From a virus, in the IMG/VR virus record IMGVR_UViG_3300032267_000060, positions 1 through 26,970 of that record: 26,970 bases of DNA; one strand, 5' to 3'. The notes under the pieces were generated by a model. It saw only the letters and a program-made list of their open reading frames with translations. It had not been told where the DNA came from and did not search any database. The translations under genes and the position numbers were made by a program. Shown here piece by piece: positions 6,778 to 20,405 of the stretch. Position 1 is the stretch's first letter, and each line of letters begins with the position of its first letter.

Positions 6778-6954
6778 GGCGCGGTAAGCCTCAATGGCGG
6801 TCTTTAGATCGCACTGCAACTGCTGAATGATGTCATCCTGTTCGCACAGTTTGACGTAGCATTCGCCTGCAAAGTCAACCAGGCTTTCGCGTTCCCAAAT
6901 GTCAAACTTGGGCATTTGAATTTGGCGTTTGCGCCAGCCGCTTGAATTGGTCAT
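6724..6954 (-). CDS. Small conserved phage protein, 76 aa, last gene of the leftward operon
   Basis: I chose ATG at 6954 because it overlaps the upstream stop (ATGA) and has AAGGAG 8 nt before it. A longer frame reaches 6984 but lacks these features. The product begins MTNSSGWRKRQ, then a mixed charged region with Cys at two sites (AGECYVKLCEQ) and a helical segment near QQLQCDLKTAIEAYRAL. I recognise no named domain. The last 54 bp run antisense through the end of the lysozyme gene, so early leftward and late rightward transcripts collide here. Confidence 0.65.
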   Translation of the reverse strand: MTNSSGWRKRQIQMPKFDIWERESLVDFAGECYVKLCEQDDIIQQLQCDLKTAIEAYRALTKEQGTLIDAPLLKSP

Positions 6955-7583
6955 GTGCTTTTCTCCTTGATGTCGTAAAACCAATCGTCACCCGCAGACC
7001 ACTTGCGGGTGCCGTCCACCGTCCACAATCTTCGCGCCGCTTGGAAGTCAGGAAACTTTGTCTCAGCAGGAATCAGGCTCTGGTCATACCACAGGCATCG
7101 GTTATTTGGCTGGCAAGCAAACTGGCCGTTGTCCAATGCAATGAAGTTAAAACTCTTGTGTTCCTCGGCCTGCTCGGTAAAGCCAGTGTCTACATCCATT
7201 CCGTCTGCGCAAAAGTCTACTGTAAACAAATAACGCCCAAAGTGCCATTCTTTGTCTTTGCCCAAAAACTTTACACCAAGATTGCGCAGGCCAATTTTTT
7301 CAACAATTGTGAACTGGTAACCCATACAGTCCCACAATTGCAAGGTATCAATTGGCAGATTGCCAGCTTCTGCGTGCCAGACATAGGCGTGAATTGGCAG
7401 CTTGTCATACAAAGCGCCATAGGCCGGAAGCAGTGATTCAATTCGGAATACTTGGCCACGCAGGGCTTTGAGGCTGACCCAGACGGCAGGCTCCAGTTCG
7501 CCATGTCCTTTGTGATCGTTGTACAAAAACTCGCGTTTCACAAAGCATTTCATGGGCGGCAGTGATGCCACGATATAACTCAT
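6951..7583 (-). CDS. Conserved phage protein of unknown function, 210 aa
   Basis: ATG at 7583 is preceded by AAGGAG at good spacing. The protein is rich in aromatic residues and looks like a single globular domain, with stretches such as REFLYNDHKGHGELEPAVW, LPIHAYVWH, HFGRYLFTVDF and NFIALDNGQFACQPNNRC. I have seen proteins with the same REFLYN, HKS-NFIALDNGQFA-QPNNR and RKWSAGDDWFY landmarks in other aquatic phages, without known function. It is in the leftward early operon, with its stop overlapping the next start (ATGA at 6951-6954). No catalytic residues can be assigned. Confidence 0.8.
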   Translation of the reverse strand: MSYIVASLPPMKCFVKREFLYNDHKGHGELEPAVWVSLKALRGQVFRIESLLPAYGALYDKLPIHAYVWHAEAGNLPIDTLQLWDCMGYQFTIVEKIGLRNLGVKFLGKDKEWHFGRYLFTVDFCADGMDVDTGFTEQAEEHKSFNFIALDNGQFACQPNNRCLWYDQSLIPAETKFPDFQAARRLWTVDGTRKWSAGDDWFYDIKEKST

Positions 7584-8322: not shown

Positions 8323-8513
8323 TAGCGCACTCTCCTAAGTTCAAACGCTTTCTCAGGTGGCGGCGGTGTCATGCCTTCGCTGGGCGGTGTCCAGCCATGC
8401 TCGCGCCAAAGCGCCTGCACGTCAGAGCCGCGCTGGTAGTTAAATGCGCGGTCTTGCAGGCTCTTGCTTGGGTAAGTCACTTTGGTTCCTTCTGGGGGTG
8501 TCCAGTTGATCAT
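8322..8513 (-). CDS. Small phage protein, 63 aa
   Basis: ATG at 8513 overlaps the stop of the glutaredoxin gene (ATGA), and its own stop overlaps the next start (TAATG). The product MINWTPPEGTKVTYPSK is Pro-rich at both ends, with a middle LQDRAFNYQRGSDVQALWREHGWTPP. The repeated WTPP at residues 4-7 and 41-44 is notable. No membrane segment or known motif is seen. It is accepted on overlap structure and on codon-like composition matching its neighbours. Confidence 0.62.
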   Translation of the reverse strand: MINWTPPEGTKVTYPSKSLQDRAFNYQRGSDVQALWREHGWTPPSEGMTPPPPEKAFELRRVR

Positions 8514-8788
8514 TGTGTTGCTCCTTTAATTGCTTCTTGTAATGCGGCCAAGCCATCAACGCGCTTGCCGTTAATAAAAATGTGAGGTAAGTCAGGGCTA
8601 GACTCCATGTCCATCTCAACATAGTTAATGTTTTTAGCCCTCAAAAGCTGCTTAACCTCCGTGCAGTTGGGGCACAAGCGCTTGGTGTAAATCACTACCT
8701 CCATGGGTTTCCAATAGTAGGGTTGGCCTTTCATGGCGTTTTCACGCTCAATGCGGTCAAACTCATCATCTTCGTCTGTCTGAATCAT
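8510..8788 (-). CDS. Glutaredoxin, 92 aa
   Basis: Glutaredoxins reduce disulfides, typically supplying electrons to ribonucleotide reductase. I chose ATG at 8788 because GGAG lies 5 nt upstream; a longer frame from 8833 would bury the previous gene's end. About 28 extra acidic residues precede the domain. The redox motif CPNC is at 39-42 (YTKRLCPNCTEVKQLL). The cis-Pro and glutathione-binding region is LPHIFINGKRVDG at 67-79, followed by a helix LAALQEAI. These match class I glutaredoxins such as T4 NrdC. No reductase gene is in the window, so it may serve a host reductase or one encoded elsewhere in the phage. Confidence 0.9.
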   Translation of the reverse strand: MIQTDEDDEFDRIERENAMKGQPYYWKPMEVVIYTKRLCPNCTEVKQLLRAKNINYVEMDMESSPDLPHIFINGKRVDGLAALQEAIKGATQ

Positions 8789-8796
8789 GTTGTCTC

Positions 8797-8997
8797 CTAA
8801 AAAGGAATTTGATCCCATTCCCAGTGTTCGCACTCAACCGTGCCGGTAATCCACTCTAGCGGTGGCTTTGCTCCAAACTGCTTACAAATACCTGTCTCAA
8901 AGTTGTTGCACTGTCGGCAATTTACTTGTATCAAATTTACTTGTTTGACCTGGCTGTCTAGATGCCTCTTGATTGCGTTCAATTCGATTAAATTCAT
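8797..8997 (-). CDS. Cys-rich putative metal-binding phage protein, 66 aa
   Basis: The most convincing start is ATG at 8997, which lies inside the 3' end of the helicase gene, giving a 101-bp same-strand overlap in another frame. A weak GAGG precedes it. The Cys pattern is C27-x2-C30-x7-C38-x17-C56-x-H58 (NCRQCNNF, GICKQFGAKPP, VECEHWEWD), and the protein ends DQIPF. I recognise this C-x2-C, G-x-C-x2-F, final C and W-D-x-IPF layout from short phage proteins of unknown function that often sit near replication genes. Metal binding is inferred. The frame is open further up to 9156, but that part has no homolog-like features. Confidence 0.62.
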   Translation of the reverse strand: MNLIELNAIKRHLDSQVKQVNLIQVNCRQCNNFETGICKQFGAKPPLEWITGTVECEHWEWDQIPF

Positions 8998-14424: not shown

Positions 14425-15257
14425 ATGAGCTGGCTCTTTTCGCAGGCGCTGGTGGTGGAATACTTGGGGGAAAACTTCTCGGATGGCGAACAGTCTGTGC
14501 AGTCGAGTGGGAACAGTACCCCGCAAGCGTACTGTGCGCCAGACAAAATGACGGGCTTCTCCCGCCTTTCCCGATTTGGGATGACGTTCAAACCTTTGAC
14601 GGAAGCCCGTGGCGAGGAATTGTTGACGTTGTTTCGGGCGGCTTTCCCTGTACGGACATCAGCATTGCAGGCAGAGGCGCAGGGCTTGACGGAGAGCAGT
14701 CCTCAATGTGGTATCACATGGCGCGGGTGGTTAGCGAAGTTAGACCCAGATTTGTATTTGTGGAAAACAGCCCAATGCTCATTCATCGAGGACTCGGACG
14801 AGTCCTTGCAGACCTTTCCAACCTCGGGTATGACACGCAATGGACTGTTATGGGAGCAGTCGATGTCGGCGCACCGCATCAAAGGGATAGAGCGTGGATT
14901 GTGGCGCACGCCAGACACGGGGGGGGGGGGGGGACATCTGGATTGCTCAAGCAGGGCCAGAATCATCGCCAGAACGGCCAGCCCATCCAGATCAGACTGG
15001 TGGATCAAGTGAACAATCCAAGACTATGGCCAACACCAGTGGCCAGAATGCACAAAGACGGTGGAAATCCCTCGGAGTACAAGAGGAACGAGATCCCCCT
15101 TGCGGCACAGGCTGGTGGGCCGTTGAACCCAGAGTGGGTAGAGTGGCTGATGGGGTGGCCGCAAGAGTGGACAGACTTAAAGCCATTGGCAACGGACAGG
15201 TTCCAAAAGTGGCAGCAACAGCATGGAAATTACTTAGTGAAAGAATTTAATGACTAA
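14421..15257 (+). CDS. dcm: DNA (cytosine-5) methyltransferase, frameshifted at a 15-G tract; 278 aa as read
   Basis: The enzyme methylates cytosine in DNA with S-adenosylmethionine. GTG at 14421 overlaps the upstream stop. Motif I is LALFAGAGGG (4-13), motif IV GGFPC with catalytic Cys77, motif VI ENS (115-117) and motif VIII QRDRAWIVAH (154-163). Directly after it the gene runs through 15 consecutive G (14919-14933). Beyond the tract the expected target-recognition and motif X part is not in this frame but in the third frame (RVDRLKAIGNGQVP, ending at 15250 in a TAATG overlap with the next gene). As read, the C-terminus instead belongs to the overlapping protein (WVEWLMGWP). One extra G, or two fewer, restores a complete enzyme ending at 15250. 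Confidence 0.88.
   Translation: MNELALFAGAGGGILGGKLLGWRTVCAVEWEQYPASVLCARQNDGLLPPFPIWDDVQTFDGSPWRGIVDVVSGGFPCTDISIAGRGAGLDGEQSSMWYHMARVVSEVRPRFVFVENSPMLIHRGLGRVLADLSNLGYDTQWTVMGAVDVGAPHQRDRAWIVAHARHGGGGGTSGLLKQGQNHRQNGQPIQIRLVDQVNNPRLWPTPVARMHKDGGNPSEYKRNEIPLAAQAGGPLNPEWVEWLMGWPQEWTDLKPLATDRFQKWQQQHGNYLVKEFND
14425..15012 (+). CDS. Second protein encoded in the +1 frame across the methyltransferase gene; 195 aa as read
   Basis: ATG at 14425 is 4 nt after the methyltransferase GTG and lies 8 nt from GGGAGG (14411-14416), a better spacing than the GTG has. The product carries landmarks I know from a recurrent phage protein family: LSRFGMTFKPLT, FPVRTS, a W-K-T segment (LWKTAQC), TFPTSGMTRNG and GLWRTP. 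Its expected end (LNPEWVEWLMGWP, then TDLKPLATDRF) lies in the methyltransferase frame after the 15-G tract. One extra G would join the parts into a protein ending at 15257. It has no known activity. Caution: a frame overlapping a conserved gene can look conserved passively; codon-level tests are needed. Confidence 0.6.
   Translation: MSWLFSQALVVEYLGENFSDGEQSVQSSGNSTPQAYCAPDKMTGFSRLSRFGMTFKPLTEARGEELLTLFRAAFPVRTSALQAEAQGLTESSPQCGITWRGWLAKLDPDLYLWKTAQCSFIEDSDESLQTFPTSGMTRNGLLWEQSMSAHRIKGIERGLWRTPDTGGGGGHLDCSSRARIIARTASPSRSDWWIK
14919..14933 (+). repeat. Homopolymeric G tract, 15 G
   Basis: Fifteen consecutive G residues lie inside both overlapping reading frames, directly after methyltransferase motif VIII. 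Such tracts slip during replication and are the standard basis of on/off phase variation; they are also a common site of sequencing or assembly error. The recognisable parts of both proteins shift by the same one base here. Confidence 0.95.
14934..15250 (+). other. Displaced C-terminal part of the cytosine methyltransferase (third frame)
   Basis: The third forward frame, open from 14894 to the TAA at 15248-15250, reads DIWIAQAGPESS after the G tract and then WAVEPRVGRVADGVAARV, followed by DRLKAIGNGQVPKVAATAW. The last part is the motif IX-X region of phage cytosine-C5 methyltransferases, where RLKAIGNGQVP closes the cofactor domain. The stop overlaps the primase ATG (TAATG at 15248-15252), the usual junction style in this genome. 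In contrast the frame as read from motif VIII ends 7 bp later, inside the primase gene. This supports the third frame as the authentic methyltransferase end. Confidence 0.85.
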
Positions 15258-17298
15258 CTTAACAACAATATTCCCCAACGGCTTTGCCGCTGCCACAGAG
15301 AGCCAAGACCTGATCAACCCAGAGGAAGGGTTTCGCAGGCACTGTGAGGCTGCGGGCCTTGTGATCAAAGACCAGATCGTGGCAGATGGTGAGATTCACA
15401 GGGTGGCTCACATCTCATCCAAGAAGGGTGCGCTGGACGGGTGGTACATCTTGCACACCAGTGGCAAAGTGCCTGTGGGCATTGCAGGGTGTTGGAAAGA
15501 GCCAGTGTTTGAAGCCAAGTGGATTGCAGATACTGGCCGTGCAATGTCATTTACTGAGCGCTTTGAGCATGACAAGTGGGTGGCAGAGGTCAAGGCCAAG
15601 AAAGATGCAGACAGACTGGCCTCGCAGGCGGTGGCTGCAGAGCGTGCAGAGGATGAGGTGGGAACGTATGCCGATGCAAGCAATGACCATCCATACCTTG
15701 TGCGCAAGCATGTTAGCGCCAACGGGATCAAGATTGATCGTGCAGGCAGGTTGGTTGTGCCAGTGATTAACCAAGCAGGGGAAATCCTAAGTTATCAGAC
15801 CATTGATGCAGATGGCAATAAGCGGTTCCTCAAAGGCGGCAAGATCGAGGGTGGGTTCTACGAGTTGCGTGGCAACCGCAAGATTGTGTTCATTGGGGAG
15901 GGCTTTGCCACATGCGCATCAATCCATGAGGCGACTGGCTACACCGTGCTGGTGGCGTTTGACTGTGGCAATCTAGCCAAGGTGGCCAAGAGCGCCAAGG
16001 AGATGTTTCCAGGCTCCAAGATCATCATTGGCGCAGACAATGACCAGTTTACTGAGGGCAACCCAGGTGTTGCCAAGGGTAGGGCAGCTGCGGCACTGGT
16101 GTTCGGTGAGATTGTGTACCCATCATTTGGAGAGTCTGACATGGTGGACAACAAGCCTACAGACTTCAATGACTTGCATTGCTTGCAGGGACTTGATGCC
16201 GTGAAAGAGCAAATTGAGCGCGTGGCTGGGCCAATGAAAGACAAGTTGGCGTTTGAGTTCTCCAGAATCGATAGCTTGGAACTTAGCCAGATCAATTGGA
16301 TTGTGGATGACTACATCGAGAGCGACAGCTTGGCGCAAGTGTTTGGAGACCCAGGCGGCGGTAAGTCATTTGTGTCCATCGACATTGCGTGCTGTGTGGC
16401 CACCGGACGGCCATGGCATGGCCATGAGGTCAAGCAAGGCTCGGTGTTCTACATTGCCGGCGAAGGGCATAACGGGTTAGCCAGGCGCTTTAAGGCGTGG
16501 CAACTAGGCAATGGCCAGACCCTTGACGGTGCGCCACTGTACAAGAGCCACCGTGCGGCGCAGCTGTATGACGCAACTGAGGCGGCAGTGGTGGCAGAAG
16601 CCATCAAAGAGCTGTCAGCGCAGGCGGGAACCGTGCCTAGCATGATCATCATTGATACTCTGGCCAGAAACCATGGCGGGGATGAGAACAGCACCCAAGA
16701 CATGAACGCCTTCATTCAGCACCTCGATGTTTACCTTCGCCAACCATGGAAGTGTTGCGTCTTAGTGGTTCACCACTCAGGCGTGGCTGACAAGGATCGG
16801 AGTCGGGGTAGCACGGCATTGAAGGGCGCACTGGATGCGGAATATCGATGCCAGCTAGATTCGGGCACAAAGACCATAGCGTTTGAATCCAAAAAGATGA
16901 AGGATGCAGAAATGCCTGCACCCAAGAATTTTCAGATCACACAAGTTGATTTGCCCATCCAAGATAAGCACGGCCTGCCAGTCAAGGGGGCTTATTTGAC
17001 GGCAGTTGACATTAGCGGGTTGATGGGGAATATCCAAAAAAGAACCGTCTTGTCAGGCAACCAGCGCATAGCTTTGAATTGCTTGGTGGCCATTGAAGCC
17101 AAGAGAATGGCAGATGGGATTGAAGGGTTTGCTGCCATGGTGGATTACGATCAATGGCGGGAAAGCGCCAAGGGGCATGGTCTGAATTCACGCAGATTTA
17201 AGGAATGTTTAGATGCTTTAATGAAAAAAACCATGGTTTTAGAGAACGCTGGCTTGTACCGAACCTTACCAAAAATAGAGTCAGATGCTACAGTTTGA
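15250..17298 (+). CDS. TOPRIM primase fused to RepA-type hexameric helicase, 682 aa
   Basis: This is the replication protein that primes and unwinds DNA. ATG at 15250 overlaps the TAA of the third-frame methyltransferase end. The N-terminal part (about 25-100) is a DUF-like region. The TOPRIM domain covers about 205-310: GEG with Glu217, GADND with Asp263 and Asp265, then TDFNDLH. The ATPase domain follows: Walker A GDPGGGKS at 366-373, YIAGEGHNGL, Walker B MIIIDT with Asp469, VVHHSG at 507-511, and RGSTALKGALD. This matches RSF1010 RepA-like (AAA_25) helicases of phages and plasmids. It is followed directly by an iteron-like array, which fits an initiator-helicase with its origin alongside. 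Confidence 0.92.
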   Translation: MTNLTTIFPNGFAAATESQDLINPEEGFRRHCEAAGLVIKDQIVADGEIHRVAHISSKKGALDGWYILHTSGKVPVGIAGCWKEPVFEAKWIADTGRAMSFTERFEHDKWVAEVKAKKDADRLASQAVAAERAEDEVGTYADASNDHPYLVRKHVSANGIKIDRAGRLVVPVINQAGEILSYQTIDADGNKRFLKGGKIEGGFYELRGNRKIVFIGEGFATCASIHEATGYTVLVAFDCGNLAKVAKSAKEMFPGSKIIIGADNDQFTEGNPGVAKGRAAAALVFGEIVYPSFGESDMVDNKPTDFNDLHCLQGLDAVKEQIERVAGPMKDKLAFEFSRIDSLELSQINWIVDDYIESDSLAQVFGDPGGGKSFVSIDIACCVATGRPWHGHEVKQGSVFYIAGEGHNGLARRFKAWQLGNGQTLDGAPLYKSHRAAQLYDATEAAVVAEAIKELSAQAGTVPSMIIIDTLARNHGGDENSTQDMNAFIQHLDVYLRQPWKCCVLVVHHSGVADKDRSRGSTALKGALDAEYRCQLDSGTKTIAFESKKMKDAEMPAPKNFQITQVDLPIQDKHGLPVKGAYLTAVDISGLMGNIQKRTVLSGNQRIALNCLVAIEAKRMADGIEGFAAMVDYDQWRESAKGHGLNSRRFKECLDALMKKTMVLENAGLYRTLPKIESDATV

Positions 17299-17571
17299 AA
17301 CAAAGTTACCATGGACTTGTACCGAAATGTACCGAAATGGTAATTTAGTTACATGTCAAAAGTACCGAACTGTACCGAAATGTACCGATTTCGGTACATC
17401 GGTACACGCTAAATGTACCGATCTATGTACCGATATGTACCGAAACGTACCGAAATGTACCGAAGCACCCCACCTCTGGTGTACCGAAACGTACCGAACG
17501 TATCTACAGATACGTTCAGGTTCGGTACATAAAGGGGTTCGGTACATCCGTACTTTGGACAGGGGGTTAGT
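17299..17571 (+). repeat. Iteron-like array of GTACCGA repeats, candidate replication origin
   Basis: The heptamer GTACCGA occurs 12 times forward (starts 17319, 17329, 17362, 17372, 17382, 17415, 17427, 17437, 17447, 17457, 17481, 17491) and 4 times inverted as TCGGTAC (17391, 17399, 17522, 17539). Within clusters the step is exactly 10 bp, and two cluster gaps are both 33 bp, so sites tend to lie on one face of the helix. A perfect inverted repeat with 9-bp arms (17496-17517) sits near the right end. Position directly behind the primase-helicase gene fits an iteron origin or a multi-site operator. A 96-codon open frame crosses it, but the 10-bp unit contains no stop in any forward frame, so openness is expected. 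Confidence 0.8.
17496..17517. repeat. Perfect inverted repeat, 9-bp arms and 4-nt loop
   Basis: GAACGTATC at 17496-17504 and GATACGTTC at 17509-17517 are perfect reverse complements around TACA. The left arm grows out of the last forward iteron. No T-run follows, so it is not a typical terminator; an origin hairpin or a protein-binding palindrome is more likely. Confidence 0.7.
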
Positions 17572-18000: not shown

Positions 18001-18513
18001 GTGACTGAAAACTTGGCGTCAGAAATGACAGTGCAAAAACATCCTGGTGGCCGACCTGTTGTTTTTGGAATTGATAACCCGTGCTGGAGAACCATCTGTG
18101 AACAGATGTCAATTGGCAAAAGTCTAAGCACCGCAATTAAGGCAGAAGGAATGCCTTCGTACCATGCCGTCATGCTTATGGTTAAAAACAACCCTGAGTT
18201 CCGCACAATGTACGAGAAAGCCATTGAGAGCCGCGCAGATCGTTTGGCTGAAGAAATCCTTGAACTAGCTGACGAACAAATGCCAGAAGGCTTAGAAGGC
18301 CCGTTAGCGAGCGCTTGGGTACAACAGAAGCGTATGCAAGTGGATGCACGCAAGTGGGTTGCAAGCAAGCTGAAGCCTAAAGTCTATGGTGATCGCATTG
18401 ATGTTGCGGTTACAGACAATCGGATCAGCGTCATGGATGCGCTTAAAGAAGCAAAGCAGCGTGTGTTACGAGATGACAGCAACGTAGTTGATGCCGAGGT
18501 TAAAGAAGCATGA
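18001..18513 (+). CDS. terS: Terminase small subunit, 170 aa
   Basis: This subunit recognises the packaging site and feeds DNA to the large subunit. GTG at 18001 has AAGGAG 8 nt upstream. Residues 15-20 are GGRPVV, followed by a helix-turn-helix-like N-terminal domain with STAIKAEGMPSYHAVMLMVK. The central helices include MYEKAIESRADRLAEEIL. Residues about 115-130 contain DARKWVASKLKPKVYGDR, the landmark of Sf6-type small terminases. The C-terminal tail is acidic and probably contacts the large subunit. The large terminase follows after a 365-bp noncoding gap, so the packaging site may lie in or near this gene or gap. Confidence 0.88.
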   Translation: MTENLASEMTVQKHPGGRPVVFGIDNPCWRTICEQMSIGKSLSTAIKAEGMPSYHAVMLMVKNNPEFRTMYEKAIESRADRLAEEILELADEQMPEGLEGPLASAWVQQKRMQVDARKWVASKLKPKVYGDRIDVAVTDNRISVMDALKEAKQRVLRDDSNVVDAEVKEA

Positions 18514-18546: not shown

Positions 18547-18660
18547 TGAACTACGCACGTGCGCGGCCAGCGTTGCGCAAACGCAACGAAAAGAAGGCTC
18601 GACAAGCAAAAAATACGTTTCTACTTAATACAATGGCCATTATGTTAAGTTGACCCTAAG

Positions 18661-18749
18661 TTATCCACAGAATTTAGAATGAATTAGTACTACAGTTTAA
18701 GTTATGCACAAGCAAATGTGGACAAGTGTGCATAACTGCCTGTGGACAA
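18661..18749. repeat. Cluster of five DnaA-box-like 9-mers
   Basis: TTATCCACA (exact consensus) is at 18661 forward and TTATGCACA at 18702 forward. The reverse-strand copies are TGTGGACAA at 18717, TGTGCATAA at 18727 and TGTGGACAA at 18741. Each of the four non-exact copies differs from the consensus by one base. Five such sites in 89 bp is far above chance. They lie about 80 bp before an AT-only run. Confidence 0.8.
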
Positions 18750-18830
18750 TCGCCCGCAGCCTGCCCGCTGGCCGAGGGGGAGGGGGTAGGGCCGGCGGCG
18801 AAAGGTCACAGGAACGGTAGCCCCGCGCAC

Positions 18831-18861
18831 ATTTTTTAATATTTTTTATTTTTATTTTTTT
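18831..18861. other. AT-only run, candidate DNA unwinding element
   Basis: Thirty-one consecutive A/T bases, mostly T-runs, lie between a GC-rich stretch and the large-terminase start. Placed beside the DnaA-box cluster this is the expected position of an unwinding element. It could equally be a bent or packaging-related segment. Confidence 0.55.
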
Positions 18862-18878: not shown

Positions 18879-20405
18879 ATGCAAACCACGATCTACAAGC
18901 CCGAAGACGAGCAGGAACTAATGGCCACGCTGTGGACACCGGCGATTGCCGATGACCCTGAAGCGTTTGTGTTGTTTGCCTTCCCTTGGGGTCAAGAGAA
19001 CACGCCACTTCAAAACTTCAAGGGGCCGCGCAAGTGGCAGCGCGAAGTCTTGAGAGAAATAGCGCAGCACATCAAAGACAACCAAGGCAAGATAGATTTC
19101 AGCACCCTGCGCAGTGCCGTCAGTTCTGGCCGAGGGATTGGCAAGTCTGCCTTAGTCAGTTGGCTTACCATTTGGATGTTATCCACGCGCATTGGATCGA
19201 CAACGATCATTTCGGCCAACAGTGAGGCCCAGCTGCGTGCAGTCACTTGGGCTGAGATTACGAAATGGTTGGCGATGAGCATTAACAGCCACTGGTTTGA
19301 GGTTGCGGCCACGAAGATCACACCGGCAGCGTGGCTTACTGAACTGGTTGAAAAAGACCTGAAAAAAGGCACAAGGTATTGGGCTGTTGAGGGCCGCTTG
19401 TGGTCTGCGGAGAATCCTGATGCTTATGCGGGTGTACACAACTTTGACGGTGTGATGGTGATTTTTGACGAGGCATCAGGTATTGATGACTCGATCTGGG
19501 CTGTGACGGCTGGTTTCTTTACCGAGAACACACCGAACCGCCTTTGGCTAGCTTTCTCCAATCCACGGCGCAATACTGGTTATTTTTATGAGTGCTTTAA
19601 CTCTAAGCGCGACTTTTGGAATAACAAGGTTGTGGATGCTAGAACCGTAGAGGGCACTGATAAGGCGGTATACCAGAACATCATTGACGAGTACGGCCCC
19701 GACTCCTCGCAAGCACACGTTGAGGTTTATGGCATGTTTCCCTCGGAAGGTGATGACCAGTTTATACCGGCTGACATTGTGGATGAGGCCATGTCACGCC
19801 CCAAGTACAAGGATCAGACTGCCCCCATCATCATTGGAGTTGACCCTGCACGCTTTGGCGCTGATGCCACGGTGATTGCGATTAGGCAAGGCAGGGACAT
19901 CATCCGCATTGACCGCCACAGGGGTGATGACACGATGACGGTGGTTGGCCATGTGATTGAGGCCATTGAAGAATTTAAGCCCACATTAGTAGTCATTGAT
20001 GAGGGTGGCCTTGGGGCCGGCATTGTTGACCGTTTGAAGGAACAACGCTACAAAATCAAAGGTGTCAACTTTGGCAATAAATCGGCAAATCCGATCATGT
20101 ATGGCAATAAAAGGGCTGAAATGTGGGGCAAAATGAAGGATTGGCTACGTTCTGCATCAATTCCTAAAGATAGGTTCTTGAAAACTGATTTAGTTTCGCC
20201 TATGATCAAGCCAGATTCTAGGGGCACTATATTTTTGGAGTCAAAGAAGGACATGAAGGCGCGTGGCCTAGCAAGTCCTGACGCAGCAGACGCAATTTGT
20301 GTTACTTTTGCGTTTCCTGTGGCTCATCGTGAGTACAATGCTCGAGAAATAAGCCGCAAGTACACTGACCGCACGGCGGTTGCAACTTCATGGATGGGCA
20401 GTTAA
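18879..20405 (+). CDS. terL: Terminase large subunit, 508 aa
   Basis: This is the motor ATPase and nuclease that packages and cuts phage DNA. Walker A is GRGIGKS (84-90), Walker B VMVIFDEAS (192-200) with catalytic Glu198, and coupling motif LAFSNPR. The RNase H-like nuclease carries Asp322 (IIGVDPARFG), Asp374 (LVVIDEGGLG) and Asp468/Asp471 (SPDAADA). ATG at 18879 has no visible Shine-Dalgarno sequence. ATG at 18921 (residue 15) has AGGA 5 nt upstream and leaves the domains intact, so the true start is uncertain. The gene lies directly behind the origin-like gap. The sequence type fits P22/Sf6-like packaging systems with a separate small subunit. Confidence 0.95.
   Translation: MQTTIYKPEDEQELMATLWTPAIADDPEAFVLFAFPWGQENTPLQNFKGPRKWQREVLREIAQHIKDNQGKIDFSTLRSAVSSGRGIGKSALVSWLTIWMLSTRIGSTTIISANSEAQLRAVTWAEITKWLAMSINSHWFEVAATKITPAAWLTELVEKDLKKGTRYWAVEGRLWSAENPDAYAGVHNFDGVMVIFDEASGIDDSIWAVTAGFFTENTPNRLWLAFSNPRRNTGYFYECFNSKRDFWNNKVVDARTVEGTDKAVYQNIIDEYGPDSSQAHVEVYGMFPSEGDDQFIPADIVDEAMSRPKYKDQTAPIIIGVDPARFGADATVIAIRQGRDIIRIDRHRGDDTMTVVGHVIEAIEEFKPTLVVIDEGGLGAGIVDRLKEQRYKIKGVNFGNKSANPIMYGNKRAEMWGKMKDWLRSASIPKDRFLKTDLVSPMIKPDSRGTIFLESKKDMKARGLASPDAADAICVTFAFPVAHREYNAREISRKYTDRTAVATSWMGS

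Follow-up and report, generated by a model that had tools for sequence, protein, structure and literature searches.

On bacterial chromosomes, recombination at XerCD sites is under the control of FtsK, and on small plasmids accessory sequences that bind ArgR or ArcA together with PepA restrict recombination at Xer sites to one molecule (PMC11724359, PMC5357621, PMC2409434). The known accessory sequences, those of ArgR or ArcA plus PepA, are located on the XerC side of the site. A better kept XerD arm, a less kept XerC arm and a variable centre are a known trait of Xer sites (PMC11724359). Among phages, dif-like sites have been reported in those that integrate (PMC5357621, PMC7062461). The locus considered here carries a site of this known kind between two phage terminase genes, adjoined by a putative accessory array of DnaA boxes for which no earlier description was found. 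Indeed, the open-licence literature searched yielded no case of DnaA boxes paired with a Xer site, while an earlier mention elsewhere is possible.

The window, that is the whole stretch of DNA analysed, comes from a freshwater phage and is a linear IMG/VR record of 26,970 bp (IMGVR_UViG_3300032267_000060). From comparison with the relatives MW202483 and DSL-LC05, the complete genome would measure about 37-38 kb and be that of a P22-type podophage, of which the window is a part. The small terminase gene terS (18001..18513, + strand; Sf6_terminase, Pfam 3.9e-31; phrog_1482) and the large terminase gene terL (18879..20405, + strand; phrog_2, 1e-41; 77% to MW202483, 69% to DSL-LC05) bracket a gap containing the Xer site, the DnaA boxes and an AT run. 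Upstream, a primase/helicase gene (15250-17298) is directly followed by an iteron array (17309..17553, + strand) made of GTACCGA with a period of about 10 bp; the iteron-like array mentioned in the first-pass annotation of this DNA is thus present. The phage has recombination genes of its own, Sak4, a Cas4-type exonuclease and SSB, and encodes a small XRE-type regulator. A leftward operon includes genes for a predicted ferredoxin-related protein (phrog_3704, 6951-7583) and for a thioredoxin/glutaredoxin-like protein (8510-8833), both possible auxiliary metabolic genes.

The Xer site had been overlooked in the first-pass annotation and lies just outside the interval described there (18661-18861). 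When relatives are aligned, the conserved block begins upstream of the boxes, with a dif-like Xer recombination site of 28 bp and 11-6-11 layout placed directly before them (18623..18650, + strand). It consists of the XerC arm ACTTAATACAA (18623-18633), the centre TGGCCA (18634-18639) and the XerD arm TTATGTTAAGT (18640-18650), all on the + strand. The family chosen for the search of chromosomal dif sites was that of a Rhodoferax MAG (G001), which contains related viral contigs. This family nearly lacks the canonical CGCATAA-type dif (1 of 121 genomes), which led the search to another dif that does match, found by pattern search, for example ACTTTATACGA-TGTATA-TTATGTTAAGT. The arms of the phage site agree at 20 of 22 positions with this dif of the presumed host family (ACTTTATACGA-N6-TTATGTTAAGT); elsewhere in the window, no place that does not overlap the site exceeds 15 of 22. 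The probable host family is Burkholderiaceae in a wide sense. Among 77 relatives retrieved through terS (see below), the XerD arm is exact in 70 whereas the XerC arm is exact in 23, and 12 different 6-bp centres are found. By sequence criteria, i.e., the 11-6-11 layout, the arms of host-dif type and the stronger conservation of the XerD arm than of the XerC arm, 18623-18650 is a Xer site. Exactly one exact XerD arm was detected in 12 of the 13 near-complete genomes searched.

Five DnaA boxes had been announced within 89 bp, and five are there, from 18661 to 18749, one matching the consensus exactly and four with one mismatch. Box 1 (TTATCCACA, 18661..18669, + strand) lies at +10 from the XerD arm and box 2 (TTATGCACA, 18702..18710, + strand) at +51. 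The three others are on the - strand: box 3 (TTGTCCACA, 18717..18725) at +66, box 4 (TTATGCACA, 18727..18735) at +76 and box 5 (TTGTCCACA, 18741..18749) at +90. In the 76 terS-found relatives that have the site, box 1 is in register in 72, box 2 in 63, box 3 in 50, box 4, the least conserved, in 38, and box 5 in 66 (at +90 or +89). A relaxed consensus yields nine box sites in the entire 27-kb stretch, five of which belong to this cluster, and 200 first-order Markov simulations gave a maximum of two sites in any 90-bp stretch. In relatives, the letters of the boxes vary mostly toward other box variants. Furthermore, the spacing stays exact across relatives of divergent lineages while the sequence between the boxes drifts, which bears out their identification as DnaA boxes.

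As judged from these relatives, the Xer site and the DnaA boxes form one unit. The 77 loci mentioned above were found by terS alone and were long enough to be tested, no motif having been used in their selection. A XerD arm (at most one mismatch) is present within 500 nt after terS in 76 of them. The boxes are therefore kept in relatives with the same terS (Xer site in 76/77, first box in register in 72/76), and the case named in the first-pass annotation as speaking against its reading, the same terminase pair without the boxes, did not occur among the 77 loci. An independent scan based on the dif arms only led to 60 new loci, not fetched by the earlier searches, one of which had demanded a box. 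In 58 of these loci, a DnaA box lies on the XerD side no further than 130 nt away, the background rate being 0.02 box per 130 nt. For 32 of these loci, none of them of the class with a CGGG-type centre, box 2 is in register in 28 and box 3 in 24, and only seven off-register boxes were counted in all. As controls, a nearby box was found for 2 of 20 host chromosomal dif sites, and a DnaA box on the XerD side for 3 of 115 gamma-type dif-like sites in viral contigs. In 21 representatives whose spacers share less than 60% identity, the arms and boxes carry 1.0-2.0 bits per position (0.5 for box 4) and the spacers 0.4-0.65 bits, whereas the lengths of the spacers are constant to the base. Because two or more boxes in register were required for inclusion among these representatives, the counts from the terS-found and dif-arm loci provide the stronger test.

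The module is also inherited as a block when it changes orientation, since site and boxes are inverted together in 16 of the 77 terS-found loci. Repeated GTTAGTGAGNGCTTACTTAC-like sequences occur alongside inverted modules (L012:680-760, L087:630-690). In a second class, whose centre is CGGGCA or similar, boxes flank the site on both sides in another register. In another locus (L358), about ten DnaA-box-like repeats with an 11-bp period follow a dif-like site. Judged by sequence, DnaA boxes and Xer sites are thus paired in at least three layouts. The module adjoins terS-terL even in lineages whose TerL are only about 30% identical to that of the window, and two genomes with short end repeats (G409 and G410) each have one Xer site with the only DnaA-box cluster of the genome beside it. 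No convincing homologue was found by DNA similarity to the module in phage and plasmid collections. A mobile cassette precisely inserted between terS and terL had been suggested by terL relatives without boxes near terL. This reading was dropped, as most of these relatives have cargo genes between the module and terL, or a different module. Variable cargo genes of 1-2.5 kb separate the module from terL in many relatives (e.g., L007:1600-3200), and in the second lineage the stretch between module and terL is hypervariable from +600 to +800 from the Xer site.

The remainder of the gap behaves as a separate half. It is made up of a G-rich stretch, a GAACGGT..CGCG..ACA core and a 31-bp AT run (18770..18861, + strand), is conserved before late genes and lies ahead of the next late gene's start codon. 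The AT run (18831-18861), correctly reported before, is the longest of the window, the next one being 18 bp long. Of 144 forward modules, 137 have an AT run of at least 14 bp after the boxes, and of 21 inverted ones none has (79/80 and 0/14 in the lineage of the window, 58/64 and 0/7 in the second lineage). Moreover, the GC-rich/AT-run half is retained in relatives that lack the Xer/DnaA half. The absence of the run after inverted boxes ties it to the region preceding the late genes rather than to a DnaA origin. The earlier view of boxes and AT run as one origin unit was abandoned, as the run stays in place when the module inverts or is missing; 18770..18861 is probably a late-gene promoter region. 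The G-rich stretch also holds two overlapping KOPS-like GGGNAGGG motifs, at 18777 and 18784 (18777-18791). GGGNAGGG orients FtsK in E. coli and Vibrio. Such a role was not read into this locus because the motif, found in 116 of 178 right halves, also occurs in relatives without the Xer site. Some relatives without dif-like module show other repeats ahead of the late genes: tandem TTGTCCACA with a 9-bp period (L045:4050-4530, L050:2080-2400, L063, L064), which amounts to DnaA boxes used like iterons, or, in L042, ATGACCCAA repeats.

Observed features are the site itself, its match to the host-family dif, the fixed register, the joint inheritance of site and boxes, and the position next to the terminase genes. 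A function that would account for them, to which we give about even chances, is that of a site for the host XerCD recombinases with the DnaA array as accessory sequence, serving to circularise or monomerise the phage genome. On the XerD side, host DnaA would occupy the five boxes, which extend over about 90 bp, and would assemble with XerCD into a nucleoprotein complex whose geometry is fixed. This complex would allow two copies of the site to recombine if they are carried by the same DNA molecule. The copies could be located at the two ends of a terminally redundant virion DNA that has just been injected, or could belong to a multimeric circle, and the product would be a unit-length circle. 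Protein binding, recombination, the part of DnaA and the timing are all deduced. The host recombinases are the likely actors, since neither a tyrosine integrase nor a partition ATPase ParA (AAA_31, PF13614) was found in 23 near-complete relatives; ParA being a mark of phage-plasmids, these relatives do not show it.

The position of the site is consistent with such a function. The pac of P22 lies in terS (PMC9611059) and, in phiM5, a relative of the second lineage, a 357-bp terminal repeat ends in the terS-terL gap. Together with the proximity of the site to terS, these locations favour circularisation or monomerisation. They suggest that packaging likely starts near terS, in which case the first genomes to be packaged would have the site in their terminal redundancy. 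Contig ends were considered as physical genome ends and set aside: they accumulate upstream of the site in one lineage (19 of 47, 3.9 expected), a suggestive enrichment that sequence diversity could nevertheless cause, and show no clear clustering in the lineage of the window (12, 8.2 expected). Some points weigh against the proposal. Sak4, the Cas4-type exonuclease and SSB could circularise the phage, a resolvase would reduce the concatemers on which headful packaging depends, and the boxes are on the XerD side whereas the known accessory sequences are on the XerC side. To our knowledge, no case of DnaA is described among Xer accessory proteins. That DnaA acts as an architectural and control protein of a XerCD site in phages of freshwater Burkholderiales is plausible, with a probability that we put somewhat below even. 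No phage-encoded DnaA-like protein was found in the window or in 23 relatives. A small protein with a DnaA DNA-binding domain (PF08299, E 3.4e-19) is encoded at 31477-31671 of MW202483.1 (near L002:7083-7379), a genome without the module.

The boxes could instead be a replication origin at which the host helicase is loaded, the Xer site resolving the multimers born from replication and being close to the boxes by mere convenience. This reading, rather unlikely though the most probable of the rivals, fits the dense, ordered and strongly conserved boxes, arranged in two inward-facing groups that are the only cluster of the genome, the GC-rich stretch and AT run that follow them in forward modules, and the TTGTCCACA or other iteron arrays found at this place in some relatives without Xer site (L045, L050, L042). 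It accommodates less well the lack of an AT run beside the boxes in all 21 inverted modules, and a base-exact distance between dif and boxes would be superfluous for an origin. GC skew gave no informative signal. Furthermore, the iteron array that follows the primase/helicase gene is likely the phage's own origin, and is a more likely candidate than the DnaA-box element. Titration, in which the phage copies would act as a sink for DnaA (and XerCD), could benefit from the five boxes that each of many genome copies carries. It requires neither exact spacing nor a Xer site. Likewise, bound DnaA could time the late genes, just upstream of which the element lies, although the module is found in either orientation relative to them (16/77 inverted). 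A sink or regulator of this type appears quite improbable.

The Xer site could also be the attachment site of a temperate phage of the IMEX type, integrated by XerCD at the host dif. Arms matching the host, the lack of an integrase and the small XRE-type regulator would suit such a phage, and the centre TGGCCA and the host TGTATA have TG in common on the XerC side, as in phages integrating by XerC-only exchange (PMC5357621). However, CGACCA, the commonest centre in relatives, has only two scattered bases in common with TGTATA, and the other viral dif-like sites sampled rarely have DnaA boxes. Integrated forms were sought and rejected: the motif is in 0 of 84,980 species genomes, and the junction between XerD arm and DnaA box in 0 of 401 host-family genomes. 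Integration is thus considered improbable. Finally, the module is always beside terS/terL in divergent phages and the pac of P22 is within terS (PMC9611059), as would be the case if it were part of a packaging start region recognised by terminase, its likeness to dif and DnaA boxes being incidental. This seems very improbable for arms that match the host dif and boxes that match the DnaA consensus, in a module that flips while the terminase genes do not.

If the proposed Xer function is true, control of Xer recombination by DnaA would be a third mode, added to those of FtsK and of ArgR/ArcA-PepA, and circularisation or monomerisation of the phage would be coupled to the availability or nucleotide state of DnaA. 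To be a fixed partner of Xer would be an unexpected non-origin job for the initiator. This would explain how unit circles arise in phages without integrase, partition genes or own site-specific recombinase, and the module would serve as a sequence signature by which such phages, and their hosts, could be recognised.

Several known systems share part of these features. Bacterial oriC and plasmid origins also show clustered DnaA boxes in both orientations, but the boxes of the phage are tied to a Xer site and not to an AT run, and chromosomes keep oriC and dif apart. The IMEX phages CTXphi, VGJphi and TLCphi, as well as enterogokushoviruses, carry a dif-like site on which the host XerCD acts (PMC5357621, PMC7062461). 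They integrate into the host dif, whereas no integrated copies were found here, and no DnaA array is known or was seen beside comparable sites (3 of the 115 gamma-type viral sites with a box). In P1, loxP lies near the packaging start. The Cre-loxP site makes and keeps unit circles of the P1 genome (PMC2409434), which is the job proposed here; P1 encodes its own recombinase, whereas the phage studied here seems to borrow XerCD, and no plasmid partition gene was found. The sites cer of ColE1 and psi of pSC101, which resolve multimers, consist like the phage site of a XerC arm, a centre of 6-8 bp and a XerD arm, are used by host recombinases and have adjacent protein sites at fixed positions, as are the phage boxes. 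Their ArgR/ArcA and PepA sequences are on the XerC side, whereas the DnaA boxes are on the XerD side. The fixed DnaA array beside the XerD arm would thus resemble a cer/psi accessory sequence working with a different protein.
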